34,496 nt of DNA from Boseongicola sp. (GCA_029287375.1 JARFRG010000177.1:1-34496); one strand, 5' to 3'; positions 7,673 to 29,450 are shown, numbered from the stretch's first letter. The notes: generated by a model not told the origin, from the letters alone. Program-made: numbers and translations.

Positions 7673-8911
7673 CTAAGCGGTTTTGTGCAGTTCAAAGGTG
7701 TCATGCAGCGCCTGCACGGCAAGCTCCATGTACTTGCGATCAATCAAAACCGAGATTTTGATCTCGGACGTGGTGATGACTTTGATGTTGATGCCCTCGT
7801 CTCGGAGCGCTTTGAACATCTGACTTGCCACGCCCGCATGACTTCGCATTCCGATGCCGACAACCGAGATTTTCGCAACGTCTGCATCTGTAACAAGCTG
7901 CGAAAAGTTAATCTCTCCGGAAGCTTTGGCGTCATCCATGGCTTTTTCGGCGCGCGCGATCTGATTGACCGGCAAGGAAAAGGTCATGTCTGTGCGTCCA
8001 TCTTCCGAGATGTTCTGCACAATCATATCGACATTGACCGAAGCATCGGCAAGCGGACCAAAGATCGCCGCCGCGATGCCGGGGCGGTCTGCAACGCTGA
8101 GAAGCGTCATCTTCGCTTCGTCGCGACTAAAGGCGACGCCCGCAACCACATTGCTTTCCATGATGTCCTCCTCGGCACACACCAATGTGCCCGCGTTGTC
8201 GTCGTTATCTTCGAAACTTGAAAGCACGCGCAACCGCACCTTGAAACGCATTGCAAGCTCGACAGACCGCGTTTGCAGCACCTTCGCGCCGAGCGATGCG
8301 AGTTCCAGCATCTCCTCGAAAGCGATCTTGTCCAACTTTCGGGCTTTGGATGTGATCCGCGGATCTGTGGTGTAGACACCGTCGACGTCCGTGTAGATGT
8401 CACATCGGATAGCGTCAAAGGCGGCAGCAAAGGCGACAGCCGTTGTGTCGGACCCACCGCGGCCAAGGGTTGTGATGCGACCTTCAGGGCTGATGCCTTG
8501 GAAACCAGCGACCACAGCAACTTTCATGCCTTCGGCAAACTTCGCATTGATGTTTTCAGTCGGTATTTCTTCGATGCGCGCGGCGGCATGAGCAGAATTG
8601 GTTTTGAGTGGAACCTGCCATCCCGCCCATGAGCGTGCCGGGACGTCCATTTCCTGCAGAGTGAGCGCCATCAGGCCCGCTGTAACTTGTTCGCCTGAAC
8701 TGACAACGGCGTCGTATTCTCGGGCGTCAAACATTGGGGAGGTCTCTTCGACCCAACCGACAAGCTCGTTGGTTTTGCCGGACATTGCCGACACGATCAC
8801 GATCACGTCGTGACCATTGGCCACCTCACGGCCGACGCGCTTGGCTGCGCGGCGTATCCGATCAAGCGTGGCGACTGAGGTGCCGCCGAATTTCATTACC
8901 AATGTGGGCAT
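7673..8911 (-). CDS. lysC: Aspartate kinase
   Basis: MPTLVMKFGGTSVATLDRIRRAA, GRGGSDTTAVAFAAAF, TDVDGVYTTDPRI, two C-terminal ACT-like regions. Confidence 0.95.
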   Translation of the reverse strand: MPTLVMKFGGTSVATLDRIRRAAKRVGREVANGHDVIVIVSAMSGKTNELVGWVEETSPMFDAREYDAVVSSGEQVTAGLMALTLQEMDVPARSWAGWQVPLKTNSAHAAARIEEIPTENINAKFAEGMKVAVVAGFQGISPEGRITTLGRGGSDTTAVAFAAAFDAIRCDIYTDVDGVYTTDPRITSKARKLDKIAFEEMLELASLGAKVLQTRSVELAMRFKVRLRVLSSFEDNDDNAGTLVCAEEDIMESNVVAGVAFSRDEAKMTLLSVADRPGIAAAIFGPLADASVNVDMIVQNISEDGRTDMTFSLPVNQIARAEKAMDDAKASGEINFSQLVTDADVAKISVVGIGMRSHAGVASQMFKALRDEGINIKVITTSEIKISVLIDRKYMELAVQALHDTFELHKTA

Positions 8912-8992
8912 TTGAGGCGCCGATATCCTGTCTCTTCGTCGCGCCTGTTACGGGATACTCGGGATCAGGACAAGAGTAGGCGACCTTTCAGA

Positions 8993-9448
8993 TCAGTTGG
9001 TCTTCGATTTGGGAACGAATGGGAGCGGAACCGCCGGAATCCCGTCTTCGATCAGCTTTTTGGCGTCCTCAGGAGCGACTTCGCCATAAATTGAACGCAC
9101 GGGCATATCGCCCAGATGCATTGCCGTGGCATCTTTCACGAAGTTTCGCCCTACATAGTCCGAATTTGCCTCAACGTGGTCGCGCAGCGCACGCAGGGCC
9201 TCCGCCATTTTTGGATCAGGTGCGGATATTACAGGATGTTGGGCTTGGGTCGTTGCGGGAACTGTCGGGTTCGCCTTCTTGCGAGACGTGGACACACCGG
9301 GCGACATGAGTGATTTCTCGACTTTTGGAGAACCACACATCGGGCATTCAACAAAGCCGGTTGCGGCAAGGCTTTGGTAGGCACCTGCCGACTGAAACCA
9401 GCTTTCAAACTGGTGGCCCTTTTCGCATTTCAAGCTGTATCGGATCAT
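8993..9448 (-). CDS. DUF1178 family zinc-ribbon protein
   Basis: MIRYSLKCEKGHQFESWFQSAGAYQSL...CPMCGSPKVEKSLM pattern. Confidence 0.8.
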   Translation of the reverse strand: MIRYSLKCEKGHQFESWFQSAGAYQSLAATGFVECPMCGSPKVEKSLMSPGVSTSRKKANPTVPATTQAQHPVISAPDPKMAEALRALRDHVEANSDYVGRNFVKDATAMHLGDMPVRSIYGEVAPEDAKKLIEDGIPAVPLPFVPKSKTN

Positions 9449-9542
9449 TCCGGCGAAGCACCTTACATGAATTGCCTGATTATTATTTAGGTCATGGTCG
9501 TAAGGAATTCAATTGCTACGACGCTGCTGAGCAGATCAGTCG

Positions 9543-11648
9543 CTATGCTCTTTCGGGCAGCGGGGCCGAATGCCCGTTTCGCAGACTAAAGGCCAAGAGA
9601 GCCACAATGCAGACCACTCCGGCAATATTCACGACTATCAGGCCCGGCCATAGGCATGCTATTCCCCCTGCCGCTGAAATCGCGCGCATAGGCCAATTGA
9701 TACGTCGTTCGAGACAGCCCTGCAGCGCACCAGCCAAACCATAGATGCCAAAGACCGCGAACCCGAAAATGACAAGTGCCACCCCCCAATCCCCTGACAA
9801 GAAAGGAGTATACGCCATGAGAAGTGGAACGATATAAAGTCCTTTTGCCAGCTTCCAGCTTTCGATGCCCGTTTGCATTGCGGGGGCTTTTGCAATGGCC
9901 GCTGCGGTAAACGAGGCAAGGGCCACTGGCGGCGTCACATTGCTGTCCTGACTGAGCCAGAAAATGATCATATGCGCGGACAGGACCGCAGCAATCGCCG
10001 CTTCTGCGGGCACCACAAGATCACGGAGGGGTGCCGCCACCTCAAGAGGTAGGGCGCGGATGATTTCCGTGGCCTGTTCCAAGGGTATCGGGCCGCCTAA
10101 CAGCGCAATTGTTTCGGGCGCCCCCAACATCAAAACGGCCTTGGCACCATCGTTGAGTGTGCCTGCGACGAGGACGTCGATCACGACCCGGTCGGAAATC
10201 ATGCCCGCAATGGCTGGGGCCGACAAAGTCGCGATCACAATGTAGGCCGCGGTCACTGGCAAACCCATCCCAAGCACAAGACTAGCGATGGCTATGAGGA
10301 CAAGCGCGATCAAAAGATTACCGCCAGCCCATCCGGCGATCATCAGGCTGAAAGTATTTCCGATCCCGGCGGTTGAGATCACATTCACAATCAATCCGAC
10401 GGAACAGAGCAGGACCGCCGTCATGATCATGCCTTTCGTGCCCATCACCAACGCCTCCAGCACAGCGCGCGGACCCATCGGATTTTGCGTCAGCCAACTT
10501 GAGGCAATCACGGCCAGTATTCCAAACACGGCGGCATATGCGGGCGTAAAGCCCATAACGAGCATCGTAATCAGGCTTGCGATTGGGATGACGAAGCTTG
10601 CACCACCTTTTCTAAACGCCGATCCAAGTGTCTCGCCGTCGCTTTCCATGGGTTTTAGTTCAAGGCGTTTGGCTTCAATGCGCACAAAGAAAGCGACAGA
10701 TAGAAAATAGAGGAGCGCAGGCAAGGCGGCGACTGCGACGATCTTCTCGTAGGAAATTTGCGTAAAGCTTGCCATCACAAAGGCGCCGGCCCCCATGATA
10801 GGCGGCATGAGTTGCCCGCCCGTTGACGACGCGGCCTCTACGCCTCCGGCAAAAGCCGGGCGGAAGCCTGCGCGCTTCATCAGCGGGATGGTGATCACGC
10901 CTGTTGAGGCGGTATTTGCAACCGCGGAACCGGATATAGTTCCTGTCAGTCCGCTGGCGATAACCGCCACGATGCCCGGACCTCCGGCCATCCGCCCGGC
11001 AATGGCCTGGGCGATGTTTATGACAAACTCGCCTGCACCAGAACGTAGCAGGAAAGCTCCGAAGATGATGAAGAGAAAGACAAATGTCGACGAGATGCGG
11101 GCAATTGTGCCGAACATAGCGTCGTCGCCAAAGAGCGAACGAAAGGCGATGGTTTCCCACGACAGGCCTGGAAAACTGAACATGCCCCCGATGTATTGGC
11201 CCCAGAATCCAATGTAAGTAAGCGCCGTTATGATCAAAATTGGAATAACCCAACCGGTCAGGCGTCGGGTCAGTTCGATGCCACCGAGAACGCACAGTCC
11301 GATCGCAACCCAGTCCAACAAAATGAGATCCACACCACGATCATAAATTGGTGTTTCGGCGTAAGGGATATAAATCGCGGCCGCGGCGACAAGTGCGCCG
11401 AAGGTCACATCAATCACCAGCAGACGGCGGTTGTGTGTTTGTCCCCGCACCATCGGATTGTAGACGGCCGCCAGAAAAGCAAACCCCGCAAAATGATACG
11501 CGTTGCGTTGAAATTCAGAAATGAAGGGGTCGAACGCCACATATATGTGGCCAACAGCGATAAAGAGACAAAGGCCATGGAGCAGCCAAAGTACCCAACC
11601 TTGGAATTCACGTAGGCTTGGCGGCTCGACTTCGATCTCTTCGCTCAT
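9543..11648 (-). CDS. TRAP transporter fused permease (TAXI type)
   Basis: Long multi-TM protein with TRAP large-subunit motifs (GGQLMPPIMGAGAFVMA, LGMGLPVTAAYIVIATLSAPA, PPVALASFTAAAIA). Confidence 0.92.
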   Translation of the reverse strand: MSEEIEVEPPSLREFQGWVLWLLHGLCLFIAVGHIYVAFDPFISEFQRNAYHFAGFAFLAAVYNPMVRGQTHNRRLLVIDVTFGALVAAAAIYIPYAETPIYDRGVDLILLDWVAIGLCVLGGIELTRRLTGWVIPILIITALTYIGFWGQYIGGMFSFPGLSWETIAFRSLFGDDAMFGTIARISSTFVFLFIIFGAFLLRSGAGEFVINIAQAIAGRMAGGPGIVAVIASGLTGTISGSAVANTASTGVITIPLMKRAGFRPAFAGGVEAASSTGGQLMPPIMGAGAFVMASFTQISYEKIVAVAALPALLYFLSVAFFVRIEAKRLELKPMESDGETLGSAFRKGGASFVIPIASLITMLVMGFTPAYAAVFGILAVIASSWLTQNPMGPRAVLEALVMGTKGMIMTAVLLCSVGLIVNVISTAGIGNTFSLMIAGWAGGNLLIALVLIAIASLVLGMGLPVTAAYIVIATLSAPAIAGMISDRVVIDVLVAGTLNDGAKAVLMLGAPETIALLGGPIPLEQATEIIRALPLEVAAPLRDLVVPAEAAIAAVLSAHMIIFWLSQDSNVTPPVALASFTAAAIAKAPAMQTGIESWKLAKGLYIVPLLMAYTPFLSGDWGVALVIFGFAVFGIYGLAGALQGCLERRINWPMRAISAAGGIACLWPGLIVVNIAGVVCIVALLAFSLRNGHSAPLPERA

Positions 11649-12893: not shown

Positions 12894-13370
12894 TCATGCG
12901 TCTTTCGGGTCGAACGACATAATTATTCCGGCCAATTCGCGTTCTTGCACCATGGCTGCCGCTTTTCTGGGCGATACCCACTTGCGCTTTCTTTGTGACT
13001 TTTCTGGCCAGATGCCGGCAAGCGATGTCACCTTGAGCGGAAATACGGCCACAACACAGGGCAGGCTGGCGTCGCCGGGAAGCATTTTGAGATAGCTGAA
13101 TATCCCAAGGCAGACCGGGCGAGTTTTGCCTTTTACACCAGCTTCTTCCCAGGCTTCTGTGCTTGCAGCTTCAGCAGGCGTCGCGCCATCTTGTGGCCAA
13201 CCTTTTGGAATGATCCAGCGCCGAGATCTTTTTGAGGTCACAAGCAATATCTGAAGCTTGCCATTGCGCCGACGCCAACACAGCGCGCCGAACTGGGTCC
13301 GCACGTCGCGTTTATCATAGTTCTCTAGATCAAGTGCCTGTTGCTTTATCTTGGTCATGCTCATTTTCAT
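12894..13370 (-). CDS. NUDIX hydrolase (DIPP/NUDT-like)
   Basis: Nudix box GWPQDGATPAEAASTEAWEEAGVKG preceded by RRWIIPK; start may be internal ATG (MTKIKQQ). Confidence 0.88.
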   Translation of the reverse strand: MKMSMTKIKQQALDLENYDKRDVRTQFGALCWRRRNGKLQILLVTSKRSRRWIIPKGWPQDGATPAEAASTEAWEEAGVKGKTRPVCLGIFSYLKMLPGDASLPCVVAVFPLKVTSLAGIWPEKSQRKRKWVSPRKAAAMVQERELAGIIMSFDPKDA

Positions 13371-13480
13371 CGACCGATTTGCTTGCCTTAGTTGTACCGG
13401 TGCTATTTTTTAAAATGCTAACATTCTCGCAAGAGATAGCAATATCTAGCACTCTGTGGATCGCACATAAGACTTAACTG

Positions 13481-14617
13481 TTGTTTTATTCAGCCCCTTC
13501 GACGCCAAAATTGATTTCTTCGGAAATCTATCGCCACTCCACGTATGGGGCATGGCATCCGTTGGCTATCCCAAGAGTTTCGACCGTTATGGACCTTGCG
13601 ACCGCCTTGGGATGGCTCGCGCCCAGAGGCTGGATTCGCAGCCCGAGAGCGCGCCCGAACGCTCTCGCGGCATGGCATCGCCCCGATTATATAGCGGCCG
13701 TTGTGCAGGCTGAAAAAGATGGTTTTGTCTCTGATGAGGTCCGCGCACGGTATCATCTTGGAACGCATGCCAATCCCGTGTTTCCCGAGATGTATCGACG
13801 TCCTGCAACGGCAGCTGGTGCTGCTATTTGGGCAGGCGAAGCGTTGCAGGCCGAGGGCGTGCTTTATTCGCCGGCCGGCGGCACGCATCATGGGCTTCCT
13901 GACCGGGCGAATGGGTTTTGCTATTTCAACGATCCGGTCCTCGCGATCTTGTCGTTGCGTGAACACGGCGTTCGACGGATTGCCTATGTCGATATTGATG
14001 CGCACCATCCGGACGGTGTTGAACATGCGTTCAGGACCGACCCGGATGTGTTGATGCTCTCGGTTCATGAGGAACGGCGTTGGCCATTCACAGGGGCTGT
14101 CGACGATGTTGGGGTGGGGAATGTTTTTAATCTTCCCGTTCCACGCGGTTTTCACGACACCGACATGGAGGCCGTAAGAGAGCGATTGATCCTGCCTCTG
14201 ATCCAGTCATTTCGCCCCGACGCCATAGTGCTTCAATGCGGCGCGGATGCTGTGACTGAGGATCCGCTTTCACGGTTGGCTCTTTCGAACAATGCGCATT
14301 GGGCGATTGTTGGTGCTCTGCAGTGCATGTGCCGACGCTACCTTGTGTTAGGCGGCGGCGGTTATAACCCTTGGAGCGTTGGGCGTCTGTGGACCGGGGT
14401 TTGGGGGACACTTTTGGGGGCAGAATTCCCCGAGCGTCTTGTGCCCGAAGCAGAGAATGTCTTGCGGGAATTGGCATGGCCGGGGCGAGTAGCCGGAAAA
14501 AACCCACCAGAGCATTGGTTTACAACAATCAGGGATGTGCCACGCCCGGGGACAATCAGCAGTGAGGTGGCTGCGCGGCTTGAGGTCTTGTGCGCACGAC
14601 TGAGGAGATGGCTGTGA
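13481..14617 (+). CDS. Histone deacetylase/AcuC/AphA family protein
   Basis: GGTHHGLPDRANGFCYFNDPVLAI, DIDAHHPDGVEHAF, LQCGADAVTEDPLSRL, GGGGYNP; TTG start probable. Confidence 0.9.
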   Translation: MFYSAPSTPKLISSEIYRHSTYGAWHPLAIPRVSTVMDLATALGWLAPRGWIRSPRARPNALAAWHRPDYIAAVVQAEKDGFVSDEVRARYHLGTHANPVFPEMYRRPATAAGAAIWAGEALQAEGVLYSPAGGTHHGLPDRANGFCYFNDPVLAILSLREHGVRRIAYVDIDAHHPDGVEHAFRTDPDVLMLSVHEERRWPFTGAVDDVGVGNVFNLPVPRGFHDTDMEAVRERLILPLIQSFRPDAIVLQCGADAVTEDPLSRLALSNNAHWAIVGALQCMCRRYLVLGGGGYNPWSVGRLWTGVWGTLLGAEFPERLVPEAENVLRELAWPGRVAGKNPPEHWFTTIRDVPRPGTISSEVAARLEVLCARLRRWL

Positions 14618-15168
14618 TGCGTTTGTTTTTGGGGCTTGGACTTCCTGATTTGCATCGAGATGCGCTTGCATCATTGCAAAGAAAATTGCCCTTGGGGCGC
14701 GCAGTACCATGGGGCAATTTTCATTTAACGCTGGCGTTTCTTGGCGAGGGGACCACTGAAATGGCCGAGGAATTGGACCTGAAACTTGGGAGCATGAAGA
14801 TCACGCTTCCTCCGATTCTGCTGAAGGATCTGGGGCAATTCGGAGGGGCGGCCCCTCGCGCGATCTGGGTCGGTGTGGAGCCGATGTCGGGCTTAGATGA
14901 GTTGAATGCGCGGCTTGAAAACGCGGCGCGCCGCGTTGGGTTCACAGTTCCGCGCCGCCGATTTGTGCCACACGTCACGTTGCAGAGGTTCGCCCGTGAT
15001 GCAGTTGAGCCAACCGCAATTGCGGCTGTTCTGGAACGGATGGGTGGATTTGCGCTCCCGTCTTTTCAGCCGTGGGCCGTCACCTTGTTCCAGTCACATC
15101 TGCGCGCAGAGGGGCCTGTATATGAGGCTTTGGCCGACTATCCGATCACGCCAGATCAGACCACTTGA
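14617..15168 (+). CDS. thpR: RNA 2',3'-cyclic phosphodiesterase (2H family)
   Basis: Two 2H motifs: FHLTLAFLG and FVPHVTLQRF; start ATG 14617 overlaps the upstream stop (TGATG). Confidence 0.88.
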   Translation: MRLFLGLGLPDLHRDALASLQRKLPLGRAVPWGNFHLTLAFLGEGTTEMAEELDLKLGSMKITLPPILLKDLGQFGGAAPRAIWVGVEPMSGLDELNARLENAARRVGFTVPRRRFVPHVTLQRFARDAVEPTAIAAVLERMGGFALPSFQPWAVTLFQSHLRAEGPVYEALADYPITPDQTT

Positions 15169-16177
15169 GTTGAGTGTTTTTGGGAATGGCGCGTGTTAGA
15201 CGTTTCCCGATCACCTTATCAAACTCGTATCCTGCGATCTCGCCTGAACCGGGCCTGCGGCCCCATATATCTGCTTCTTCAATAAGGTGCCCTTCCGCGA
15301 GGTCCCGATCGGCCACGACGCTTGTGCGCGCAAAGCGATAAACGGGTTCTTCTGCGGATGTACGGCGTTTCTCATTGTGAAGGGCGATGTGGATTTCACG
15401 GGAGCGATCAATGAGATGGCGCAGTTCGGAGGGGTCCATGGAATTGATGATGTCTGGACCTTCCCGGTAGCGCGTATCGGTAAAATGTCGTTCAAGAATG
15501 CAGGCACCCAATGCCACCGAAGCGAGTGCCATTTCTGGCCCGATGGAGTGGTCGGAAAACCCTACGACAGCGTTCGGGAATGCGGCGCGAAGGTCGGTGA
15601 CACCCCTCAGGGACACAATCTCTGGCGGTGACGGATAGAGATTTGTGCATTCAAGCAATGCATAGTCAACGCCAGACTCGTCCAGAATTTGAACGGACGC
15701 GCGGATCGTTTCGATCGACTGCATGCCGGTCGACATAATGATCGGTTTGCCTTTAGCCGCGATGTGCCGGACCAGGGGGAGGTGGTCAGCTTCGCCTGAT
15801 CCAATCTTGAAAGCCGGAACACCAATGTCGTCCAGAAAGTCAGCGGCCGAGCGCGAGAATGGCGTGGAAATATAGATTAGGCCAAGGCTCTCTGCATGGG
15901 CCTTTAGGGCGATCTCGTCATCCGCGGACAGCGCGTTTTCTTCCATGACTTGCCAAATGGACTTGCCGCCGGCGTTGGGCGGCAGGACATTCTTTGCCTC
16001 TTCGGTCATCTCGTCTTCGACGAAATGCGTCTGGTGCTTGACGATCTCGCATCCCGATTGCCCGGCGAGCGTCACCATGTGCTTGGCAACAGCAAGACTG
16101 CCCCCGTGGTTGATGCCGATCTCGGCGATGACCAGCGGCGGTTCGGAGGGGCCTATTTTGCGATGAGCGATTTGCAT
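15146..16177 (-). CDS. neuB: NeuB-family N-acetylneuraminate/nonulosonate synthase with C-terminal SAF domain
   Basis: VIAEIGINHGGSLAVAKHMV, IVKHQTHFVEDEMT, STPFSRSAADFLDDIGVPAFKIGSGE, GFSDHSIGPEMALASVALGACILERHFT; SAF-like C terminus; start refined from 16204. Confidence 0.9.
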   Translation of the reverse strand: MQIAHRKIGPSEPPLVIAEIGINHGGSLAVAKHMVTLAGQSGCEIVKHQTHFVEDEMTEEAKNVLPPNAGGKSIWQVMEENALSADDEIALKAHAESLGLIYISTPFSRSAADFLDDIGVPAFKIGSGEADHLPLVRHIAAKGKPIIMSTGMQSIETIRASVQILDESGVDYALLECTNLYPSPPEIVSLRGVTDLRAAFPNAVVGFSDHSIGPEMALASVALGACILERHFTDTRYREGPDIINSMDPSELRHLIDRSREIHIALHNEKRRTSAEEPVYRFARTSVVADRDLAEGHLIEEADIWGRRPGSGEIAGYEFDKVIGKRLTRAIPKNTQLKWSDLA

Positions 16178-16279
16178 GAGCGCGTGTTTCCTTATGTCTT
16201 TCAATTCGGTCTAGCGGGAAGTGCGGTGACTTCACAAGCACCCCTTGCGCCCAAACCGAAAGAGGGGTTGGTTCTGGCA

Positions 16280-17602
16280 ATGACCCGTACACCGAATGCT
16301 CAGTCCCGTGCGCCTTTGCGATATCGCGCTGCGATAGCGATATATCAAGCAGTGCTATGGGCTGCCATGCCTCTGGTTTGGAGGTATTTTCGCCGTCGTG
16401 CAGAACGCGACCCCGCCTACGGCCTGCACCTGGATGAGCGGCGGGGCGTTTTCGGCGGCAATCCTGTCGATGTTTGGATCCACGCGGTTTCTCTGGGAGA
16501 GTTTCGTTCGGCCGAGCCAGTTATTCGGGGGCTTCTTTCAGCGGGGAAGTCGATCATCTTGACGCATGCCACCCCTGCTGGTCGCGCTGCCTCGGAAGCG
16601 GCGCTGGCAACTGAAATTGGCACGGGCCGTGTGCAAGTTAGCTATGCGCCAGTCGATCGTATCTCGGCATGGTCGCGTTTTTTCCGCGTTGCGCAGCCGC
16701 GTGCGGGTCTAATTTTTGAGATGGAATTTTGGCCGGGGATGACCGAGGCGGCGGTGTCGTTTGGAGTGAACCTTTGGTTCGTCAATTCGCAGATCCCAGA
16801 GAAGAGCTTTCCGCGCGTCCTAAAGGCGGCCCGACTGCTTGGTTCGCATCCCGCGACGCGGGCTCAAGGCGTAATGGCAAAGTCGACGCGCATGGCAAGC
16901 CGGTTCAAAGCGCTCGGTGCTGCGAACGTAGAAGTGGTGGGCGAGACCCGGTTCGATATCGAACCGCCCTCCCTGCAAGTCGCGGCGGGGCAGACGTTAA
17001 AGGCACAAATTGGAGCGCGACCGCTCTATGTCTTTGCAAGCGTCGTCGAGGGCGAAGAGCATGTCTACATGGCGGCTTGCCAAGACTTGGGGCGGGCGAA
17101 GCCAAAGCCGCTGGTAATCTGGGTTCCGCGTGCTCCTGAAGTGTTCCAAAGCACTTATGAAATGTTGCGAAATGCGGGTTTGCACGTTGGGCGTCGCTCT
17201 ACTGAAATCACTGAAAGGCTTGAACTGATTGGGTCGCCCAATGACTTTGACATTCTGCTGGGAGATTCATTTGGAGAGATGTTCTTCTATCTTTCCGGGG
17301 CCGATGTTGTGAGTGTTGGCGGTGGCTTTGTTGAAAAGGGCGCGCATAATGTGATTGAACCTCTGGCGCTGGGCAAACCGATTGTGACCGGCCCGCATAT
17401 CTGGACAATCGAATTTCCGGGACGTGAGGCGCGTGATGCGGGCGTGTTGACAATTTGCAAAGATCCGGATGGGTTGGCGGATGCTTTGACACTTGCACGC
17501 AACAATTCGGTGGACGCTGCATGCGATTTTCACCGCGCAAATATCGGGGCATCGGGCCGTATTGTTGAGGCCGTGATTGGGTGGATGGAGCAAGTGCAAT
17601 GA
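16280..17602 (+). CDS. WaaA/KdtA-like 3-deoxy-D-manno-octulosonic acid transferase family glycosyltransferase
   Basis: DVWIHAVSLGEFRSAEPVI, ILTHATPAGRAA, YAPVDRISAWSRFFRVAQPRAGLIFEMEFWPGM, GGGFVEKGAHNVIEPLALGKPIVTGPH; start refined from 15950 to ATG 16280. Confidence 0.88.
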   Translation: MTRTPNAQSRAPLRYRAAIAIYQAVLWAAMPLVWRYFRRRAERDPAYGLHLDERRGVFGGNPVDVWIHAVSLGEFRSAEPVIRGLLSAGKSIILTHATPAGRAASEAALATEIGTGRVQVSYAPVDRISAWSRFFRVAQPRAGLIFEMEFWPGMTEAAVSFGVNLWFVNSQIPEKSFPRVLKAARLLGSHPATRAQGVMAKSTRMASRFKALGAANVEVVGETRFDIEPPSLQVAAGQTLKAQIGARPLYVFASVVEGEEHVYMAACQDLGRAKPKPLVIWVPRAPEVFQSTYEMLRNAGLHVGRRSTEITERLELIGSPNDFDILLGDSFGEMFFYLSGADVVSVGGGFVEKGAHNVIEPLALGKPIVTGPHIWTIEFPGREARDAGVLTICKDPDGLADALTLARNNSVDAACDFHRANIGASGRIVEAVIGWMEQVQ

Positions 17603-18276
17603 AAGAATTTGTCGCCGTTGTTCCTGCGCGTGCAGGCTCGAAAGGGGCTCCGGGCAAGAACATGCGAGATTTCGCAGGCATCCCGCTTTGGCGGCGGGCA
17701 GCCGAACAGGGATTGTCCGCCGGTGCTGGGCGCGTCCTTGTCACAACTGATATCGAAGCCGTTCTGAGCGCACACCATCCCGACGGAATCGAGGCTGTTG
17801 CACGTCCGGCCAAACTTGCAAGTGACAGCGCCCCGATGGCCCCTGTGCTGCTTGATCTCTTGGCCGATCCGACTCTTGAGGGGGCGACCATTGTCTTGTT
17901 GCAGCCAACGTCGCCCTTGAGAACCGATCACGATATTCGATCCTGCTTGGAACTGTACGCGGGTGGAGAATTTGAGCTTGTTTTGAGCGCGACAGAAACA
18001 GATCGAGGCATTCTCAAATATGGGACGCGTGAGGGCAGTCGCTTTGCACCGCTTCAAAGTGCAGAGCATTGCTTTTCGAACCGCCAGGCATTGCCCGCTG
18101 TTTGGAGGCCGAATGGCGCGGTGTATGTGTTTGAAAGAAATTGGTTCTTACAGAACGAAGGCTTTGTGAGTGACCGCATTGGTATGGTCGAAATGCCGCC
18201 GGAACGCTCTTACGATATCGATACCAAGGCCGATTTTGACCGGACTGAAAGTTACTTCAAGACGCGGAGCGCCTAG
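17599..18276 (+). CDS. neuA: Acylneuraminate cytidylyltransferase-like protein
   Basis: VAVVPARAGSKGAPGKNMRDFAGIPLW, ILLQPTSPLRTDHDI, FNR..PNGAVYVFER; ATGA overlap with the upstream gene. Confidence 0.88.
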   Translation: MKEFVAVVPARAGSKGAPGKNMRDFAGIPLWRRAAEQGLSAGAGRVLVTTDIEAVLSAHHPDGIEAVARPAKLASDSAPMAPVLLDLLADPTLEGATIVLLQPTSPLRTDHDIRSCLELYAGGEFELVLSATETDRGILKYGTREGSRFAPLQSAEHCFSNRQALPAVWRPNGAVYVFERNWFLQNEGFVSDRIGMVEMPPERSYDIDTKADFDRTESYFKTRSA

Positions 18277-18956
18277 TCTGCCAGACCTTCAAGGTCACGG
18301 CTGGTAGGGTCAACCAAAAGGGCGGCGATCCATCCCGCGACAAACCCGCCGAGATGCGCTTCCCATGCCAGCAATTTGTCCATGGCAAAGTACAGCACGA
18401 CATTCAGAACTATCAAGAAGGCAACGGCACGCAAGACGGGCCACATTCTGGCTTTGTATATAAAGCGGTCGATATATTCCCAGGCAAGTATTGCGCCAAC
18501 CAATCCGAAAAGAGCGCCCGATGCTCCTACCATTGGCCGGAAGGACTCGCTGAGAAGTGCAAAGCCCGCAGCCCCACCGAGGATCGCAAAGGCGTAGATA
18601 AACGCTGTCTTCCAAAGGCCAACACGGTCAAGCACGACAGGCGCGAGACTGGCCAGAGTGATCATATTCACCACCAGATGGACCCAGCCGCTGTGCAGGA
18701 AGCCATAGGTAATAAACATCAACCAAGGCTGCGTTCGATAGTTCGGTTCCCAGTCTGCAAGGATACCAGGCCAGAAGCCGGCGTATTCATAGACTGTTGA
18801 ACGAAATCGGGGAATATCTGCGACCCCCATTTCTCCGGCAAAAAGGGCTGCTTCGATAAGAACGTAGAACCCTATCAATATGAACACGGATGGATAAAAG
18901 CGTGGAGACGAGGCGGTCACCTCGCCCTTATGCTTTTCTGGCGGCTGCTGTGTCAC
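18273..18956 (-). CDS. Rhomboid family intramembrane serine protease
   Basis: HSGWVHLVVNMITL, GASGALFGLVGA (GxSG Ser), AHLGGFVAGWIAALL (catalytic His). Confidence 0.92.
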   Translation of the reverse strand: MTQQPPEKHKGEVTASSPRFYPSVFILIGFYVLIEAALFAGEMGVADIPRFRSTVYEYAGFWPGILADWEPNYRTQPWLMFITYGFLHSGWVHLVVNMITLASLAPVVLDRVGLWKTAFIYAFAILGGAAGFALLSESFRPMVGASGALFGLVGAILAWEYIDRFIYKARMWPVLRAVAFLIVLNVVLYFAMDKLLAWEAHLGGFVAGWIAALLVDPTSRDLEGLAD

Positions 18957-18977
18957 AGAAAGCTTCGTCGACGCAGA

Positions 18978-20354
18978 TCAAAACCCAAATGAGAAGTCGC
19001 GGCCAACATTTACGAACAGGGTGCTGGACGCTCGACTATCAGCGCCTTCTTCCGAAATACGAGTGTGACGCAATCCTGCATTAAGGCCCCAATCTTCACT
19101 CAAGTCTCGCGAATACCGGATTGCTGCGGACGTTCGGGAATCTCCACCCGGTGCACCAAGCTCTTCGGCAGAGCCATATGAAAAATTGGCACTCCATGAC
19201 GAGATCGAATTTATGGGCGCCGAGAACCCGACACCAAGCGATGTATTCAAAAACGCTAGCCCGTTATCCGTCGTCGGGCTTTGGACCAGATTTGCAGTCA
19301 GAGTGCCTCCGGCCGCTTCCCGGGTATAGCCAACGCTCGTTGTCAGTTCGAGATCCTGATCTTCCTGATCGACGACACCCAGTGACAACGACAGGGCGCC
19401 GGCCGGCAAGTCATAGTCGCGGCTGACACGTGCCGTTGTGCGACGGCCGCTTTCGTCAATCCGGCTTGAGAGGAGCAAGGCGATCCCCCCATCAGGCCGG
19501 TCCTTAGAAATACCAAGTGAAAGGCCAACGCCATCGTCGTCGCTTGCAACAACGGCACCATTCAGTGTCTCGGTCGAATCCAGCGTAATGTCGGCAGACA
19601 CTTCCAGCCCATCGTTGGTCGCGGTGGTCAGGCCCGCACCAATGGATTGGTTCCGGCGCGATGTCTCAAGAAAATCATCTTCGTCAGAGCGCGCATAAGT
19701 GCTGGTTAGACGTGCCGTCATCGCTGGGCTGATGCTGAAGCGCGCCGTGGCGCTGACTCTGGTTGTGTCGCTGTCGACAAGATCGGCTGTGTCCACGAAA
19801 TTGTTGGTTGTCGTGCTGAACGAGAGATCGACCCCAAACGGGGCATCCAAGCCTGTTGAAAAGTCTGCGGAGAGTCTTTTGCGTTTGCGTGTACCGCCTT
19901 CCAGGATCAGTGCATCCGGGTCGAAAACGCCATCAACGAAAAAGCCAAAGACTTCTGAATCAAGCTCGGCTTCGTCGTAGCGGCCTGAAAGTGCCAGCCG
20001 CGAGTTGATGCCTTCGCGTGTGTATGCCAGCGACGCGCTAGAACTTTGCAGGTCCAATGCGTCCGCAGATGTCGTCGAGCCCCCGTCTTCGCCTTGGATC
20101 GACGCACCAAGTGTAAAGCGAAACTGGTCAACCCGTGTCTCGCTACTTAGCGAAAAGCCAAGGTCAGTCACGCTGGTCAGCGTATTCCCATCGGCAGGGG
20201 AAGAAAGCGACGGGTTGTCGCTTACTTCTAAGCCGGTGGAGAAAGAAAGGTTGCCGCGTAACCCTGTCCCGTCTTGAGCCAAGACGGGTGCTGCTGCACA
20301 TGTGGCAAGCGAGAGGGCGGCAGTTGTTAGTCGTCCCGGTCGCATTTTTTTCAT
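18978..20354 (-). CDS. Outer-membrane beta-barrel protein of exopolysaccharide locus
   Basis: Signal peptide to AQDG; repeated amphipathic strands; ends in aromatic FSFGF; directly downstream of Wza-like gene. Confidence 0.75.
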   Translation of the reverse strand: MKKMRPGRLTTAALSLATCAAAPVLAQDGTGLRGNLSFSTGLEVSDNPSLSSPADGNTLTSVTDLGFSLSSETRVDQFRFTLGASIQGEDGGSTTSADALDLQSSSASLAYTREGINSRLALSGRYDEAELDSEVFGFFVDGVFDPDALILEGGTRKRKRLSADFSTGLDAPFGVDLSFSTTTNNFVDTADLVDSDTTRVSATARFSISPAMTARLTSTYARSDEDDFLETSRRNQSIGAGLTTATNDGLEVSADITLDSTETLNGAVVASDDDGVGLSLGISKDRPDGGIALLLSSRIDESGRRTTARVSRDYDLPAGALSLSLGVVDQEDQDLELTTSVGYTREAAGGTLTANLVQSPTTDNGLAFLNTSLGVGFSAPINSISSWSANFSYGSAEELGAPGGDSRTSAAIRYSRDLSEDWGLNAGLRHTRISEEGADSRASSTLFVNVGRDFSFGF

Positions 20355-20359
20355 TTTTT

Positions 20360-20965
20360 CTACTCGAAGAGGCGTCTCTCAGGAACAATGATAACATCCC
20401 CGTCAGCAAGAACAATGTCTGATCCGAGTGAAGCCCCGCTTGCGATGGCCTTATAGTTGATCCGTGACACTGTTTGCTCGCCTGTCGATGGGTTTGAACG
20501 GCGCAGCAAGATGCGCTTGGTTGCAGCAAACCGCGTAAATCCACCCGACGTCGCCAGCGCTTGCAAAACCGTCGTTCCGCGCTCTAGGCGTTTCAATCCG
20601 GGCGTGCCGATTTCACCAAGCATATATACGTCTACTGTGGGCCCGACTTGCTGTGTTTGGGCTTCCACGCGAGGGCGCAGCGATTGCACCGTCACAAAGA
20701 CCGTTGGTGACGTGGCGAAATTCGACGAAATACTGGAAGCAATCGAAGCTGCTACTGCATCCGGCGAGCGTCCTCCTGCCTGGAGACTTCCGGCGAATGG
20801 GAAAGTGATTGTTCCGTTCGGCAAGACAAGAAGCGTCCTGTTCAAAGACGGATCTTCTAAAACTTCAACGGCCAGCGTGTCGCCGCTTCGGATTTGGTAT
20901 TCGCTTTGTGCAAAAGCGATCGTTGCCGCCATCATTGCGACTATCGTAAAAAACAGAGTTTTCAT
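20360..20965 (-). CDS. Polysaccharide export protein (Wza-like, Poly_export + SLBB)
   Basis: Signal peptide; SEYQIRSGDTLAVEVLEDPSLNRTLLVLPNGTITFPFAGSLQAGG; VDVYMLGEIGTPGLKRLERGTTVLQALATSGGFTRFA. Confidence 0.88.
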   Translation of the reverse strand: MKTLFFTIVAMMAATIAFAQSEYQIRSGDTLAVEVLEDPSLNRTLLVLPNGTITFPFAGSLQAGGRSPDAVAASIASSISSNFATSPTVFVTVQSLRPRVEAQTQQVGPTVDVYMLGEIGTPGLKRLERGTTVLQALATSGGFTRFAATKRILLRRSNPSTGEQTVSRINYKAIASGASLGSDIVLADGDVIIVPERRLFE

Positions 20966-21088
20966 CGTATTCACCCCCAAAAAAACTGCGTCCCGAAAAC
21001 TATGGGACTGATCGTGCTACAAACAAAGCGCCAAATAACGACCGGCAGAGATCGCATAACGCATTGTGTTCAAAGGGCGACATGCCCT

Positions 21089-23533
21089 TTATTCCGTTGT
21101 TGACGTCGCAGCGAGTCTTTCGACGGCTGCGCGCGCCAAGGATATTTGTGGGCGTTCGTCACTTTCACCCGAGATTTCGATAACGCGTCTGTAGGTTGCA
21201 AGAGCTTCTTCGGTTCGGCCGACGGCCTCGTAAGCACTTGCGAGATGGAACTGAACAACCAGGTCGCTGGCAAGGGCTCTGGCGGCCGGCTCCAGATAGC
21301 TGATGGCCTCCTCGGACTGCCCGCGGCGGTGAAGAATCCAGCCGTATGTGTCCTGGAACGGCGGAACTTCGGTGCCGCGCAAACGCCTGGCGATCGCGAA
21401 AGCACGCTCGAGGCTTGCGTCGTCTGTCTTGTATGTGGCCAAAAGGCTGGCAAGGTTATTGGCAACCACCAACAATCCTGAATTCTGGGAATAGAGGTTT
21501 TCATAAATGTCGATCGCGCCATCAATGTCGTTCGCTTGCTCAAGAAAAGTAGCTTGTGCCCAGAGTAGATTCGGCGCGTCGGGATTGGCGACCAAAGCCG
21601 TTTCCAGGGTTGCCCGGGCATCATCAAGACGCCCTTGCGAGCTTTGAGATCGCATTGTTTGGATCCACGCGCGCTCGAAGCGAGGGAAAGCCTCTGTGAT
21701 GGCGATGAACGTCGCCTCGGCGTCCTGATAATTCTGAAGCGCGAGGTGCGTTCCACCCAAAACCATTGCAATCCGCGGATCGTCTGGTGCTTTGGCGACA
21801 AGCTGATTGGCAATTAAAAGGGCCTCGTCGCTTTCCCCTGCGCGCAGGCGTTCACGAAGGAGCGTGATCTGCGCGGTGACACTGGCATCGGCACCTTCGA
21901 CCATACTCTCCAACTCGGCAATGGCTTGTTCGCGGCCATCGCGTCGCGAAAGAACCTGAAGGCGGAGGCTATTGGCAAACTCAACGGCTTGTGGGCTGCC
22001 TTCCCGGCGCAGCGTGGATTCCACCTGAAGGGCGCGCGGCCAGTCCTCGGACTGCAGGTATACGTCCCCCAAAAGCCGCAAAAGGCCTACGTCTCCCGGG
22101 CTTTGGCGAAGACCGCGCACAAGGGCATCTTCAGCGGGCCGAAATCTTTCAAGCGCCACCAGCGTGCGGGCAAACCGAATGGTTTCTTCCGGGGCATATC
22201 CCGAGGCTTCGGCTGCCAAGGATAACATGTCCTGCGCCAACTCGGCCTCGCCGGCTCTCTGGTGCGCCTGCGCCATAAGAGTAAGGGTGTCGCTGTCCTG
22301 TGGGGCCTGATCGAGGGCGCGTCGCAAAGCACCGATTGCTTCGTCGACCTGATCGTTTTCAATCAACCAGTTTGCACTTAATTTCAACGCCTCGATCTGA
22401 GATGGATCATCAGCAAGGACCTCTTCAACAAGTTGCCGCGCACCGACATCATTCCCGTTTGCGATAAGCATACGCGCAAGAGTGACTTTGAAGCCGCTGG
22501 TTTGATCGTCATCAGGACCAGCTCTGTCTATGATGCCCTGCATTTCGGCAATACCGGCTTCGCGGTCACCACCATCGAAAAGAAGGCCAGATCTGAGTGC
22601 CAGAAGCATATTCGGGTTTTCATATCGCCCTACAGCCTCGTCAATTTCGGCAAGAGCGGCGTCTTCCCCGCGTGTTTGCCGCAGGAAGCCAACCAAAGCG
22701 ATTTGCAAATCCAAGCTGTCTTCGCGTTGTGCGATTTGCGCACGCAAGAATTCTTCGGCGCGTTCGGGTTCGCCGAGGGCTGTCAACAGGCGGATGAGGA
22801 CGCTCTTTGTGCTGCTGTCGTCGGGAAACGCCTGAACTGTTCTCCGGAGGTGCTCCTCGAGATCAACGTAGCTCTCGGCTTGGGCGAGCAATGACGCCTT
22901 CATTGAATAAAAGAAGCTGGAGTCAGGGTCTGCGGCGATTGCGAGGTCGACATATTCCAAGGCGTCCTCAACACGTGACTGACGCACCAGCCCATCGATG
23001 ATGACGCGCAAAAGAGTGATGTCTTTTGGGTAGGTTTCGACAAGCGCGATGGCGTCTTGCGTCAGTGCGCGGACAGCGGACTCGTCTTCGTCGAGCGCGG
23101 CCTGGCGAAATCGCAGTACAAGCTCGACAACATCAACCCCTTCGAGTTCGGCATTTGCCTGAATGAGCAGTTCTGAATGCCGTGCGGCCTCATCCCAATT
23201 GAGCGCTTCGATTGCCATCTCTGACAGTGCAAGCCTTGCCTCAAGATCATTTGGATTGTCTTCGGCCAAGCGCAGGAAATTCGAGTACGCAGCAGAGAAA
23301 TCTCCACGATCCCGCACGGTCTCAGCAAAGACACGGCGCGCATCAATATGAAACTCATCGAGAGAAAGTACATTGCGGAATTCAACGAGAGCACGCTCAA
23401 CATCGCCAGATTGGAGAAGTGCCAGCCCATTTTGATAGTGGCCTTCCGCACGCTCTTCTGCACTATCGCAGGCCGCGAGAAGACCCATGGCAACTGACAA
23501 AACAAAGCCACGAACGATAGGTGAAGAAAGCAT
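21089..23533 (-). CDS. TPR-repeat lipoprotein, PrsT-like (exopolysaccharide/exosortase-context family)
   Basis: Lipobox-like VAMGLLAACDS; many TPRs (GHYQNGLALLQSGDVERALVEFRNVL...); start refined from 23587 to ATG 23533. Confidence 0.8.
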   Translation of the reverse strand: MLSSPIVRGFVLSVAMGLLAACDSAEERAEGHYQNGLALLQSGDVERALVEFRNVLSLDEFHIDARRVFAETVRDRGDFSAAYSNFLRLAEDNPNDLEARLALSEMAIEALNWDEAARHSELLIQANAELEGVDVVELVLRFRQAALDEDESAVRALTQDAIALVETYPKDITLLRVIIDGLVRQSRVEDALEYVDLAIAADPDSSFFYSMKASLLAQAESYVDLEEHLRRTVQAFPDDSSTKSVLIRLLTALGEPERAEEFLRAQIAQREDSLDLQIALVGFLRQTRGEDAALAEIDEAVGRYENPNMLLALRSGLLFDGGDREAGIAEMQGIIDRAGPDDDQTSGFKVTLARMLIANGNDVGARQLVEEVLADDPSQIEALKLSANWLIENDQVDEAIGALRRALDQAPQDSDTLTLMAQAHQRAGEAELAQDMLSLAAEASGYAPEETIRFARTLVALERFRPAEDALVRGLRQSPGDVGLLRLLGDVYLQSEDWPRALQVESTLRREGSPQAVEFANSLRLQVLSRRDGREQAIAELESMVEGADASVTAQITLLRERLRAGESDEALLIANQLVAKAPDDPRIAMVLGGTHLALQNYQDAEATFIAITEAFPRFERAWIQTMRSQSSQGRLDDARATLETALVANPDAPNLLWAQATFLEQANDIDGAIDIYENLYSQNSGLLVVANNLASLLATYKTDDASLERAFAIARRLRGTEVPPFQDTYGWILHRRGQSEEAISYLEPAARALASDLVVQFHLASAYEAVGRTEEALATYRRVIEISGESDERPQISLARAAVERLAATSTTE

Positions 23534-23632
23534 GACAAGACTCCCGAATACTATTGGAGCGATACTAACAAATACGCGGTCGCACAACCAGACCGACAGG
23601 TCTCACGGCTTTGCGATCAAAAAGAAAACGCC

Positions 23633-24322
23633 CTAGAAACCAGTTCCGCGGAAAACGACAGAAACCGTCTTGAACAAGATTTTCAGGTCCTGCCAAGCAG
23701 ACAAAGTCATGTCGTAACTGTCGTCGTAAAATGCGCGTTCGGCAAAAGCGGATTGGTTCCGTTTCGAAACCTGCCATAAGCCAGTCATTCCCGGGCGAAG
23801 ATTATAGTAGCTGCGTCCCGGATACAGAGCTTGCTGCAGGGGCAGCATCGGACGTGGCCCGATCAAGGACATGTCGCCAGCCAAGACATTGATGATTTGG
23901 GGCAACTCATCAAGAGATGTGCGGCGAAGTGCACGACCAATCCGCGTGCATCGCGGATCAATCGCGAGCTTCTGCTTTGCATTCCACTCGCGCCGTGCGT
24001 CCGTGTTTTCTGAAAGGTGGCTCTCTAAAAGAGCTTCGGCTTGCGGCACCATCGTGCGGAATTTCCACATCGTGAAACGGCGACCATCCCGGCCCACACG
24101 TTCCTGCCGGAAAATCGGAGAATGGCCGTCGGACGCTATTGCGAGCGCAATAAGCGCCAGAAACGGAGCCACAAATGGAAGGGCGCAAAGCACCAAGGCC
24201 AAATCAATGATGCGCTTAATTCCAGATCGGTAGAGACTGTTTGACTTGATCGGTCCGCTAATTGGCAGAGAATCCACGTTCGCAGCAGAACGGCTAGCAA
24301 CATTCGTCACATGTACAGTCAT
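23633..24322 (-). CDS. Exopolysaccharide sugar (undecaprenyl-phosphate glycosyl-1-phosphate) transferase
   Basis: KRIIDLALVLCALP, FRQERVGRDGRRFTMWKFRTM, RRTSLDELPQIINVLAGDMSLIGPRPM, LRPGMTGLWQVSKRN. Confidence 0.93.
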   Translation of the reverse strand: MTVHVTNVASRSAANVDSLPISGPIKSNSLYRSGIKRIIDLALVLCALPFVAPFLALIALAIASDGHSPIFRQERVGRDGRRFTMWKFRTMVPQAEALLESHLSENTDARREWNAKQKLAIDPRCTRIGRALRRTSLDELPQIINVLAGDMSLIGPRPMLPLQQALYPGRSYYNLRPGMTGLWQVSKRNQSAFAERAFYDDSYDMTLSAWQDLKILFKTVSVVFRGTGF

Positions 24323-24638
24323 ACTTTTTACCGAAGCACCTTCGGCCCCCTAAAACTCACCGGACCCAAACACCATCCATTCGGAAGCAACTACCGAAGA
24401 CGGGTCCCGCAATCTTGTTAACATTTGAAGGCTGAGAAGGGAAGATTTGCATGGTATCGCGCGGCTTTTCCTTTCCATCTCCAACGGCCATGATCGAAAA
24501 CTGTCCGTGTAATGCCTGAAAATGCGCAAAAATCCGCCCAAATCGTGCCACAAAGTAGCCTCAATCGAATCTTGTGTTGCGTTCCTTGAACCACAAGTTT
24601 GGTAAACGATTGCTTAAAAACTGCACGGACTGTCCACA

Positions 24639-24652
24639 AATCGTCGACGATT
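24639..24652. promoter_or_regulatory. Perfect 14-bp palindrome in the divergent EPS intergenic region
   Basis: AATCGTCGACGATT reads identically on both strands. Confidence 0.4.
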
Positions 24653-24794
24653 GATTAACCGTGAGAATGCGATGTTACGTTGTGATTCGGCCTCGGCCTT
24701 GTTTTCGGAGTAGAATCTGCACAAAAGCCGTGTCGACGTCACTATATGGCCTTTAAGTTTAGGTAACTAACAGCGTCACGCGAGCTGGAGCGTG

Positions 24795-25670
24795 ATGCAG
24801 AGCGATAGCGAGAACATGACGAGTAACGATCTTTACGTCGAGTATTTCGGGTTTACCGAGCGACCGTTTACGCTGTTGCCCGACCCGGACTTTTTGTTTT
24901 GGTCGCGGGCGCACCGACGCGCTTTTTCAGTACTCGAGTTTGGTGTCATTACGCGCGCGCCGATTACGGTCGTAACTGGCGAGGTCGGTGCGGGGAAGAC
25001 CACACTCATACAGAAACTGCTTCAGTCATTGGATGATGACATAACTTTGGGGCTAATCTCGAACGCTCAAGGCGGACGCGGAGAGTTGCTTCAATGGGTG
25101 CTTAATTCGTTGTCAATTCAGGCGGATTTGACCGGCGCATATGTGTCGATGTTTCAGCAGTTGCAGGACTATGTGATTGAGGAATACGCGAGTGGACGTC
25201 GGGTCGTCTTGTTGATTGATGAGGCGCAAAACCTCAGTATCGAAGGGCTTGAAGAGCTTCGGATGCTGACAAATATTAACTCCAATAAAGATGAGCTGTT
25301 GCAGTTGATTTTGGTTGGACAGCCTGAGCTCAGGCAAATGATAATGCGCCCGGAACTTCGCCAATTCGCTCAACGCGTTACCGCGACCTATCACATCGGA
25401 GCGCTGGATCGCGCGGCTGTTGCCGGTTATGTGCAGCATCGGCTAAATCATGTCGGCGGGTCAGGCAATGAGTTTACCGCCGATGCGATTGAGCTTATTC
25501 ACGAACACTCACGTGGGATTCCGAGATTGGTTAATAAGTTGTGTGATTTTGCGATGGTGTATGCCGCTACTGAAGAGCGCCGTGTCGTCGACGGGGCGAT
25601 CATTGAAGAAGTCCTCGAAGACGGAATCTTCCTACCTGCGATGCACCTTTCAGGAGATGCTGCAGAATGA
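24795..25670 (+). CDS. ExeA/GspA-like AAA ATPase, XrtA/PEP-CTERM-associated ATPase type
   Basis: YVEYFGFTERPFTLLPDPDFLFWSRAHRRAFSVLEFGV, Walker A GEVGAGKT, Walker B VVLLIDEAQNLS; start could be 24816. Confidence 0.88.
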   Translation: MQSDSENMTSNDLYVEYFGFTERPFTLLPDPDFLFWSRAHRRAFSVLEFGVITRAPITVVTGEVGAGKTTLIQKLLQSLDDDITLGLISNAQGGRGELLQWVLNSLSIQADLTGAYVSMFQQLQDYVIEEYASGRRVVLLIDEAQNLSIEGLEELRMLTNINSNKDELLQLILVGQPELRQMIMRPELRQFAQRVTATYHIGALDRAAVAGYVQHRLNHVGGSGNEFTADAIELIHEHSRGIPRLVNKLCDFAMVYAATEERRVVDGAIIEEVLEDGIFLPAMHLSGDAAE

Positions 25671-27184
25671 ATTCAGACATCAGATTCTATTGGAGCCTGT
25701 TCCTTAAGCGGCTGCCTTTGATGGCCGTTGTTTTCGTCATGTGTTCGGCTTTGGGGGTTGGCCTGGCGATGACGTTGCCATCTCGCTACACGGCAACCGC
25801 GCGGCTTCTTTTGGAAAGTCCACAAATTCCCGATGAGCTGGCGGCATCTACGGTGCGCACTTCGGCAACCGAACGCCTTCAAATCATTGAGCAACGGCTG
25901 CTCACCCGCGCGAACCTGATTGATATTGCAAATGAATTTTCCGTTTTCAGCGGAAGTGGCCGCATGACGCCGGACGAAGTTGTGACCGCGATGCGCGATT
26001 TGACGGCAATTCGCACAACCAGCAGCCGTGGCGGCGCGACGTTTATGAACATCTCTTTTCGGGCGACAACTTCGCAATTGTCCGCGGAAGTTGCCAACGA
26101 GTTTGTTACACTTGTCTTGAGCGCGGATTCCACGCGACGTCAGGGTTTGGCGGAACAAACCCTAGATTTCTTCGAAGAGGACGTGCGGCGGTTGGACGAA
26201 CAGCTTTCACTGGAAAGCGCAGCCATCGCTGGATTCAAGGAAGCAAATCAGGACGCTCTTCCCGAGAATTTGGCATTTCGGATTGACCGCTTGTCGCGCC
26301 TGCAGGACTTGGTGGTGGCGGCCACGCGGGATCGGGCCTCGCTAAGCGAGCAGCGAACGCGGATGATGATTATCGGAGCGACCGCGCGCGGGCCACAACT
26401 GTCGCCTGAACGGCAGGAACTGCGGGATGTAAAAGAAGAACTGGAGCGTGCGCTTACCATCTATTCCGAAACCAATCCTCGGGTGAAAGTTCTTCAGGCC
26501 CGCATCGCGCAACTGACGGCGTCGGTTTCGTCCGAAGACCCAAGCGCGCAAGAGGAAGTGACCGATCCGACACAGGCACTGTTTGCGCTTGATCTCGCGG
26601 ATATTGATCGCAGGCTGGAGTTTTTGGATGCGCGCGTTCTTAGCGCCGAGGCCGAAATCAAAGAGCTTCGGGAAGCCATCGATAAGACACCTGAAAATGC
26701 CATTAGGCTCGAGTCTCTTGAGCGGGACTACCAGAATACGCTGAGTCAGTATAATGGCGCCGTTTCCAATCTTGCGCGGGCGCAAACTGGCGAGAGAATT
26801 GAGGTTCTCTCAAAAGGCGAACGCATATCAGTGATTGAGCAAGCGACAGCGCCGACAGCCCCCAATAGTCCGAACAGACCGCTAATCGCTGGTGGCGGCG
26901 TTGGACTTGGGCTTTTGCTTGCGACGGCGCTCTTCGTTTTGCTTGAGTTAACCAACCGCGCAATACGCCGGCCCGAAGATTTGGTTAAGGGCCTTTCAAT
27001 TCAACCGCTTGCAACCATTCCTTATCTTGAGACCGCCGGCGGTCAGGCGAGGCGCCGCGCCCTAATGGTGATTCTTGTGGTCGCTCTAGCGGTTGGAATA
27101 CCGGTACTTTTGTGGGCGGTGCATACATTCTATCTTCCGTTGGATTTGGTGATTGATCGGCTCCTTGGCAAACTAGGCCTTTAA
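25667..27184 (+). CDS. Wzc-like polysaccharide chain-length determinant (GNVR-type, no kinase domain)
   Basis: Two terminal TM segments, coiled-coil middle, APTAPNSPNRPLIAGGGVGLGLLL motif; 4-nt overlap with upstream ATPase gene. Confidence 0.87.
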   Translation: MNSDIRFYWSLFLKRLPLMAVVFVMCSALGVGLAMTLPSRYTATARLLLESPQIPDELAASTVRTSATERLQIIEQRLLTRANLIDIANEFSVFSGSGRMTPDEVVTAMRDLTAIRTTSSRGGATFMNISFRATTSQLSAEVANEFVTLVLSADSTRRQGLAEQTLDFFEEDVRRLDEQLSLESAAIAGFKEANQDALPENLAFRIDRLSRLQDLVVAATRDRASLSEQRTRMMIIGATARGPQLSPERQELRDVKEELERALTIYSETNPRVKVLQARIAQLTASVSSEDPSAQEEVTDPTQALFALDLADIDRRLEFLDARVLSAEAEIKELREAIDKTPENAIRLESLERDYQNTLSQYNGAVSNLARAQTGERIEVLSKGERISVIEQATAPTAPNSPNRPLIAGGGVGLGLLLATALFVLLELTNRAIRRPEDLVKGLSIQPLATIPYLETAGGQARRRALMVILVVALAVGIPVLLWAVHTFYLPLDLVIDRLLGKLGL

Positions 27185-27207
27185 CACGTGTAAATCGGGT
27201 ACAAGAC

Positions 27208-28041: not shown

Positions 28042-28043
28042 AA

Positions 28044-29375: not shown

Positions 29376-29450
29376 AGAAACATTCCTTTTCGCTTTGGGG
29401 CGACTTAAACTCTCAAATCATGATGCATCAAAGGTCAAATAGTGGACCAA

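Follow-up and report, generated by a model that had tools for sequence, protein, structure and literature searches.

We analyzed a 34,496-nucleotide stretch of DNA from Boseongicola sp. (GCA_029287375.1, JARFRG010000177.1:1-34496; hereafter the window), in which a paralogue of the lipid A 3-deoxy-D-manno-octulosonic acid (Kdo) transferase WaaA, a member of the family GT30, stands between two genes of sialic acid type. This paralogue and its orthologues are given here the working name WaaN. The host genome (G000) is a Boseongicola-like metagenome-assembled genome (MAG), 87% complete. On the minus strand, neuB (15146-16177, ATG at 16177, stop at 15146) encodes a 343-amino-acid synthase of the N-acetylneuraminate type, with a PF03102 domain (225 bits) and a SAF domain. 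It is separated by a divergent intergenic region of 102 bp (16178-16279, start codons read from the sequence) from waaN on the plus strand (16280-17602, ATG at 16280), which encodes a predicted nonulosonate (NulO) transferase of 440 amino acids with a PF04413 domain (128 bits). The stop codon of waaN overlaps the start of neuA by ATGA on the same strand (17599-17602), and neuA (17599-18276, ATG at 17599) encodes a 225-amino-acid synthetase of cytidine monophosphate (CMP)-nonulosonate, of the CMP-N-acetylneuraminic acid (CMP-Neu5Ac) type (PF02348, 55 bits). A preliminary description of the window had reported these three genes, their coordinates and the overlap, all of which were confirmed, as was the divergent gap it had put at about 100 bp. 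The overlap suggests that waaN is likely coupled translationally with neuA, which also lies directly 3' of waaN at five other loci (L031, L032, L033, L034 and L035). The comparison of gene order across the family that the same description had proposed showed that the order of the window is kept in Boseongicola aestuarii (L035/L094), a second Boseongicola MAG (L031/L095), Kangsaoukella pontilimi (L032) and the genome G238 (L170); therefore, the arrangement is not due to chance.

We then looked at the sugar that this module could provide. Window NeuB matched Neisseria meningitidis SiaC with 342 bits, against 132 bits for the pseudaminic acid synthase PseI, and was 69-91% identical to the NeuB proteins of other WaaN clusters, although its score to TIGR03569 (338 bits) is below the cut-off of 400. 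Its R308 aligns with SiaC Arg314, a residue with a role in the binding of N-acetylmannosamine (ManNAc), which is thus kept. The best solved relatives of NeuA are CMP-Neu5Ac synthetases (104 and 97 bits), while KdsB reached at most 37 bits. A scan confined to proteins of the window gave no PseB/PseC or LegB/LegC. The preliminary description had also remarked that no NeuC is encoded in the window and that the precursor was consequently unknown. The first part holds, but the precursor is largely settled by a NeuC, though a divergent one, that the genome encodes outside the window at G000:C252:6073-7188 (358 bits, the cut-off being 235.9). All three enzymes are therefore encoded, NeuC on contig C252 and NeuB and NeuA in the window, giving a full NeuC-NeuB-NeuA route. 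As the 99% complete genome of B. aestuarii (G004) contains the same genes, with neuC on a separate large contig, this pattern is not an assembly accident. That the product in this species is Neu5Ac rather than another NulO appears likely.

Is waaN simply the lipid A Kdo transferase of this organism? The preliminary description had suggested searching the genome for kdsA, kdsB, lpxK and a second waaA, and all of them were found. A canonical, intact waaA (C148:10802) lies together with kdsA (C148:12494) and kdsB (C148:13420) on a separate contig, and lpxK is on contig C145. The genome contains three GT30 genes, namely waaN, the canonical waaA and a third one on C145, and the idea that waaN is its only waaA was rejected. 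Considering this separate intact waaA beside kdsA and kdsB, and the presence of lpxK, waaN is not the lipid A Kdo transferase. The third GT30 gene (L092:7173-8558) directly precedes lpxK (8555-9547) and belongs to a clade in which the catalytic and CMP-binding residues are lost in the nine members examined, making it a candidate conserved pseudoenzyme. Lacking catalytic residues, it was rejected as a competitor of waaN, and only two GT30 enzymes of the genome, the canonical one and WaaN, therefore look active. Separately, we observed that the kdsA-linked waaA is interrupted by stops in B. aestuarii (G004:C39:114426-114611) and in one relative (G001:C372:1298-1707); in B. aestuarii, the broken copy appears to have been superseded by another canonical waaA, located on C42.

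WaaN is nevertheless a GT30 protein both by its PF04413 domain and by its GT-B fold. The AlphaFold2 model (pLDDT 91.6) had as top PDB match Aquifex aeolicus WaaA (2XCI, E=2.5e-20). The phylogeny against Kdo transferases, also among the checks proposed beforehand, showed no clustering with bona fide alpha- or beta/gammaproteobacterial enzymes. The Neu (neuraminic acid)-linked genes and the GT30 genes linked to pseudaminic acid (Pse) form instead one clade of their own (100/100), which is separate from the WaaA of alpha-, beta- and gammaproteobacteria and splits cleanly by sugar type (100/98 and 100/100). Within the tree, beta/gamma WaaA are the neighbors of this NulO clade and alpha WaaA are distant from it, which led us to reject a recent duplication of the resident waaA. 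Scores against curated NCBIfam models were of no use as a test of Kdo function: WaaN reaches 305 bits against a Kdo-transferase cut-off of 524, but the genome's canonical enzyme likewise falls below its own cut-offs.

We also mapped residues on Aquifex WaaA, whose residue roles have been described (PMC6286764), comparing 46 rows of the NulO branch, a few of which are repeats of one genome, with 35 Kdo enzymes. The equivalents of the catalytic Aquifex residues G30/E31 and E98 and of the CMP ligands P211, R212, N273 and E276 are kept in all 46 rows; in WaaN, the invariant E74, R284, N357 and E360 correspond to Aquifex E31, R212, N273 and E276. On the contrary, positions constant or nearly so in the Kdo enzymes are changed (window numbering). 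R171 is Q in 40 of 41 Neu rows and N in all five Pse rows, Q201 is K in 46/46 NulO rows, and F377 is I or V in the NulO branch. K224, corresponding to Aquifex K162, the proposed contact to the Kdo carboxylate (PMC6286764), is R in all 41 Neu rows and retained as K in the Pse type. At these four positions (171, 201, 224 and 377) window WaaN has Q, K, R and I in place of the R, Q, K and F of Kdo enzymes. Enzymes in which chemistry and CMP stay the same while the sugar changes would be expected to show such a pattern.

We asked whether WaaN and sialic acid genes occur together in a family sample of 249 genomes, one per genus, calling WaaN with a profile of ten orthologues (E<=1e-90) and the NeuB clade at >=59% identity. 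WaaN was found in 38 genomes, NeuC in 41 and this NeuB clade in 34. WaaN is present in 31 of the 34 genomes with this NeuB clade versus 7 of the 215 others (p=2e-29) and is also associated with NeuC (p=3e-24), both by Fisher tests that ignore shared ancestry and measure the strength of association only. Genomes having only other NeuB types showed no association with WaaN (p=0.5). Moreover, WaaN and NeuB or PseI are encoded at most 7.5 kb apart in 28 of 36 pairs. The canonical waaA is the immediate neighbor of waaN in 22 of 33 Neu-type genomes, commonly in the order neuC-waaA-waaN with neuB and neuA near, an adjacency that points to Kdo-lipid A as the acceptor.

Five lower-scoring WaaN-like genes (350-405 bits) constitute the sister clade. 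Three of them (L152, L153 and L154) stand among genes for PseB, PseC, PseF and PseI, with a PseH-like gene in addition in L153 and the order pseB-pseC-pseF-pseI-GT30 on a single strand in L154; the contigs of the remaining two (G201 and G216) are too short to show the neighborhood. In the window, neuB is preceded by two conserved flanking genes, one for a Nudix hydrolase (12894-13370, minus strand, PF00293), outside the proposed pathway, and one for a histone-deacetylase-like hydrolase (13481-14617, plus strand, PF00850, 226 bits). The Pse cassette of L153 follows these same two genes. The Nudix gene flanks the Pse/GT30 cassette in both L153 and L152; the histone-deacetylase-like gene is found beside the Pse cassette of L153 as well as beside the Neu cassette of L201. 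Pse and Neu cassettes thus look as if they had been exchanged at one site, judging from these shared flanks. The regions concerned are L153:857-10059, L152:3747-10567 and 12894-18276 of the window, where a further flanking gene, for an RNA 2',3'-cyclic phosphodiesterase (LigT/ThpR; 14590-15168, plus strand; TIGR02258, 118.7 bits, above cut-off), overlaps with its 3' end the neuB stop by 23 bp.

We also sampled the class and the phylum, with about 310-320 genomes for each. Here a clear WaaN outside the family appeared only in G287, a proteobacterium outside Alphaproteobacteria, and the background of ordinary WaaA was at most 356 bits. G287 (L200) contains a complete neuC-neuB-neuA/waaN-waaA cassette of five genes in about 7 kb, whose waaA groups with alphaproteobacterial waaA in the tree, and the cassette was apparently acquired by horizontal transfer. 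A search of plasmids gave no WaaN orthologue, all matches being at most 34% identical. In Sinorhizobium meliloti Ak57, pSymA (CP090105.1, L172) carries neuA-neuB-neuC of this clade, with a NeuB that is 76% identical, together with genes for capsule export and for alpha-2,8-polysialyltransferase-family proteins; this locus on the symbiosis plasmid is possibly for a polysialic-type capsule.

A WaaA paralogue traveling with sialic acid genes, with a sister group accompanying Pse genes, would therefore probably attach those sugars to the inner core of the lipopolysaccharide (LPS). We consider it probable that WaaN represents a GT30 branch transferring a NulO, here of sialic type, from the CMP-sugar to inner-core Kdo. 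In the proposed pathway, NeuC, encoded elsewhere in the genome, would supply ManNAc, NeuB would condense this mannosamine derivative with phosphoenolpyruvate, and NeuA would turn the product into the CMP sugar. WaaN would then move the sugar from CMP, with inversion, onto the Kdo of a lipid A-linked Kdo acceptor made by the separate canonical WaaA. The suggested product is of the type alpha-Neu-(2->8)-Kdo, as in the lipooligosaccharide (LOS) of Loktanella rosea. Formation of alpha-Neu-(2->8)-Kdo by a GT30 member is chemically plausible, as enzymes of this family convert CMP-beta-Kdo to alpha-Kdo with inversion and the WaaA of chlamydiae builds Kdo-(2->8)-Kdo. Loktanella (Yoonia) rosea belongs to the same family, and its LOS core contains alpha-Neu-(2->8)[alpha-Kdo-(2->4)]-alpha-Kdo (PMC3210612), for which we found no assigned enzyme. 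The parts of this proposal differ in strength. The class of donor, CMP-NulO, is very probable considering the association, the tree and the residues; inner-core Kdo is a likely acceptor in view of the gene adjacency and the L. rosea structure; the 2->8 linkage is tentative, its chances falling a little short of even. A search limited to the sialyltransferase family PF07388 gave no match above cut-off in the 41 nearest genomes, while its controls were detected. The hypothesis of nonulosonate transfer put forward in the preliminary description survived those of its refutation tests that were open to computation and is supported.

Several observations weigh against this interpretation. Three genomes of the NeuB clade (G021, G041 and G258) are without WaaN and two WaaN genomes (G176 and G216) show no NeuB, and the Fisher tests leave shared ancestry uncorrected. 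The exceptions without WaaN are partly explained, as G041 is only 79% complete and the neuB-neuC-neuA genes of G258 apparently belong to another polysaccharide cluster. In addition, the NeuC of the host shares only about 30% identity with that of standard clusters and adjoins a CBS/nucleotidyltransferase gene; for these reasons, it may contribute in this genus to a different pathway or to a modified sugar. In two loci (L164:6067-8332 and L165:6099-8364) the NeuC of the genus is encoded beside a CBS-domain nucleotidyltransferase and a major-facilitator transporter, with a family-2 glycosyltransferase also in L165. Finally, the window module adjoins an XrtA-type exopolysaccharide (EPS) locus and not waaA. 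The region after the module (18273-32798) encodes a rhombosortase-like rhomboid protease, a 458-amino-acid protein without family match, EPS export and synthesis proteins of the XrtA/PEP-CTERM type, a UDP-glucose dehydrogenase and dTDP-rhamnose enzymes; of these, the rhomboid gene and the genes for EPS export are also conserved next to the module in L032, L094 and L170.

This last neighborhood feeds the main rival on the acceptor question, in which WaaN would transfer the NulO to a non-LPS acceptor, such as the priming residue of the adjacent exopolysaccharide or another glycolipid. The module stands beside the same XrtA/PEP-CTERM EPS locus in the window and in those three loci, and the same NeuB clade serves a capsule-like locus with an alpha-2,8-polysialyltransferase-family protein in Sinorhizobium. 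However, most genomes have waaN beside waaA and not beside an EPS locus, lipid A or Kdo is the acceptor of the known GT30 enzymes (PMC6286764), and the relative L. rosea carries Neu directly on Kdo (PMC3210612), so that we regard this alternative as unlikely. Similarly improbable is that WaaN is a second Kdo transferase (Kdo II or III) linked by chance to NeuA and NeuB, with CMP-NulO used by another, unrecognised transferase. Its family name, its GT30 fold and its position next to the canonical waaA in many genomes would agree with this, and separate late Kdo transferases exist: Acinetobacter KdoT is a later-acting inner-core ulosonate transferase besides WaaA, but, unlike WaaN, it is not WaaA-like and uses CMP-Kdo (PMC12856342). 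Yet KdsA is present in 39 of 41 genomes, whereas WaaN tracks NeuB and NeuC and its sister clade tracks Pse genes, and residues invariant in the 35 Kdo enzymes are altered in a donor-dependent way. WaaN could also be a decaying or non-functional copy retained by linkage, considering that it evolves fast (orthologues 37-64% identical, compared to 69-91% for NeuB) and that the third GT30 group of the family lost its catalytic residues; this is very improbable, as WaaN keeps all catalytic and CMP-binding residues throughout the rows compared, its frames are open throughout and the cassette is found in a genome as distant as G287.

Compared with known systems, WaaN, a predicted inner-core NulO transferase, shares with WaaA/KdtA the fold, the catalytic Glu, the CMP-binding residues and the N-terminal helices, and its sequence is nearest to beta/gamma WaaA. 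It differs in forming a separate clade, in its substitutions at Kdo-invariant positions, in standing among NulO genes and in occurring in addition to a canonical waaA. The multifunctional WaaA of chlamydiae, whose product is alpha-Kdo-(2->8)-Kdo, is a GT30 precedent for a 2->8 bond on Kdo, but it uses CMP-Kdo, while the predicted donor of WaaN is CMP-NulO. In a mechanistic study published recently, seven inverting sialyltransferase families are listed, GT29, 38, 42, 52, 80, 97 and 100, with GT30 as the inverting Kdo transferase family (PMC9587256). The known sialyltransferase families would share with WaaN its predicted donor, CMP-sialic acid, whereas WaaN is GT30 by sequence and fold. Our literature search gave nothing relevant on a NulO-linked WaaA, a GT30 sialyltransferase, a second waaA or Rhodobacterales NeuB, and no sialyl- or pseudaminyltransferase of GT30 was found.

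Taken as a whole, we lean towards an undescribed GT30 branch of NulO transferases acting on inner-core Kdo, with sialic and pseudaminic subgroups, in which the cassette and its matching transferase would be exchanged as a unit, Neu and Pse cassettes could share a chromosomal site, and marine relatives would thereby change which acidic sugar adjoins lipid A. If true, the database label "Kdo transferase" would be wrong for waaN genes, and the branch would offer a natural enzyme series (Kdo/Neu/Pse) for studying donor selection. It would also provide the enzyme that is missing for the unusual L. rosea core with Neu on Kdo, a product of the type this module would make and known there from structure alone (PMC3210612). 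Moreover, it would suggest that sialic-type sugars are placed next to lipid A in about one-eighth of the sampled genera of the family.

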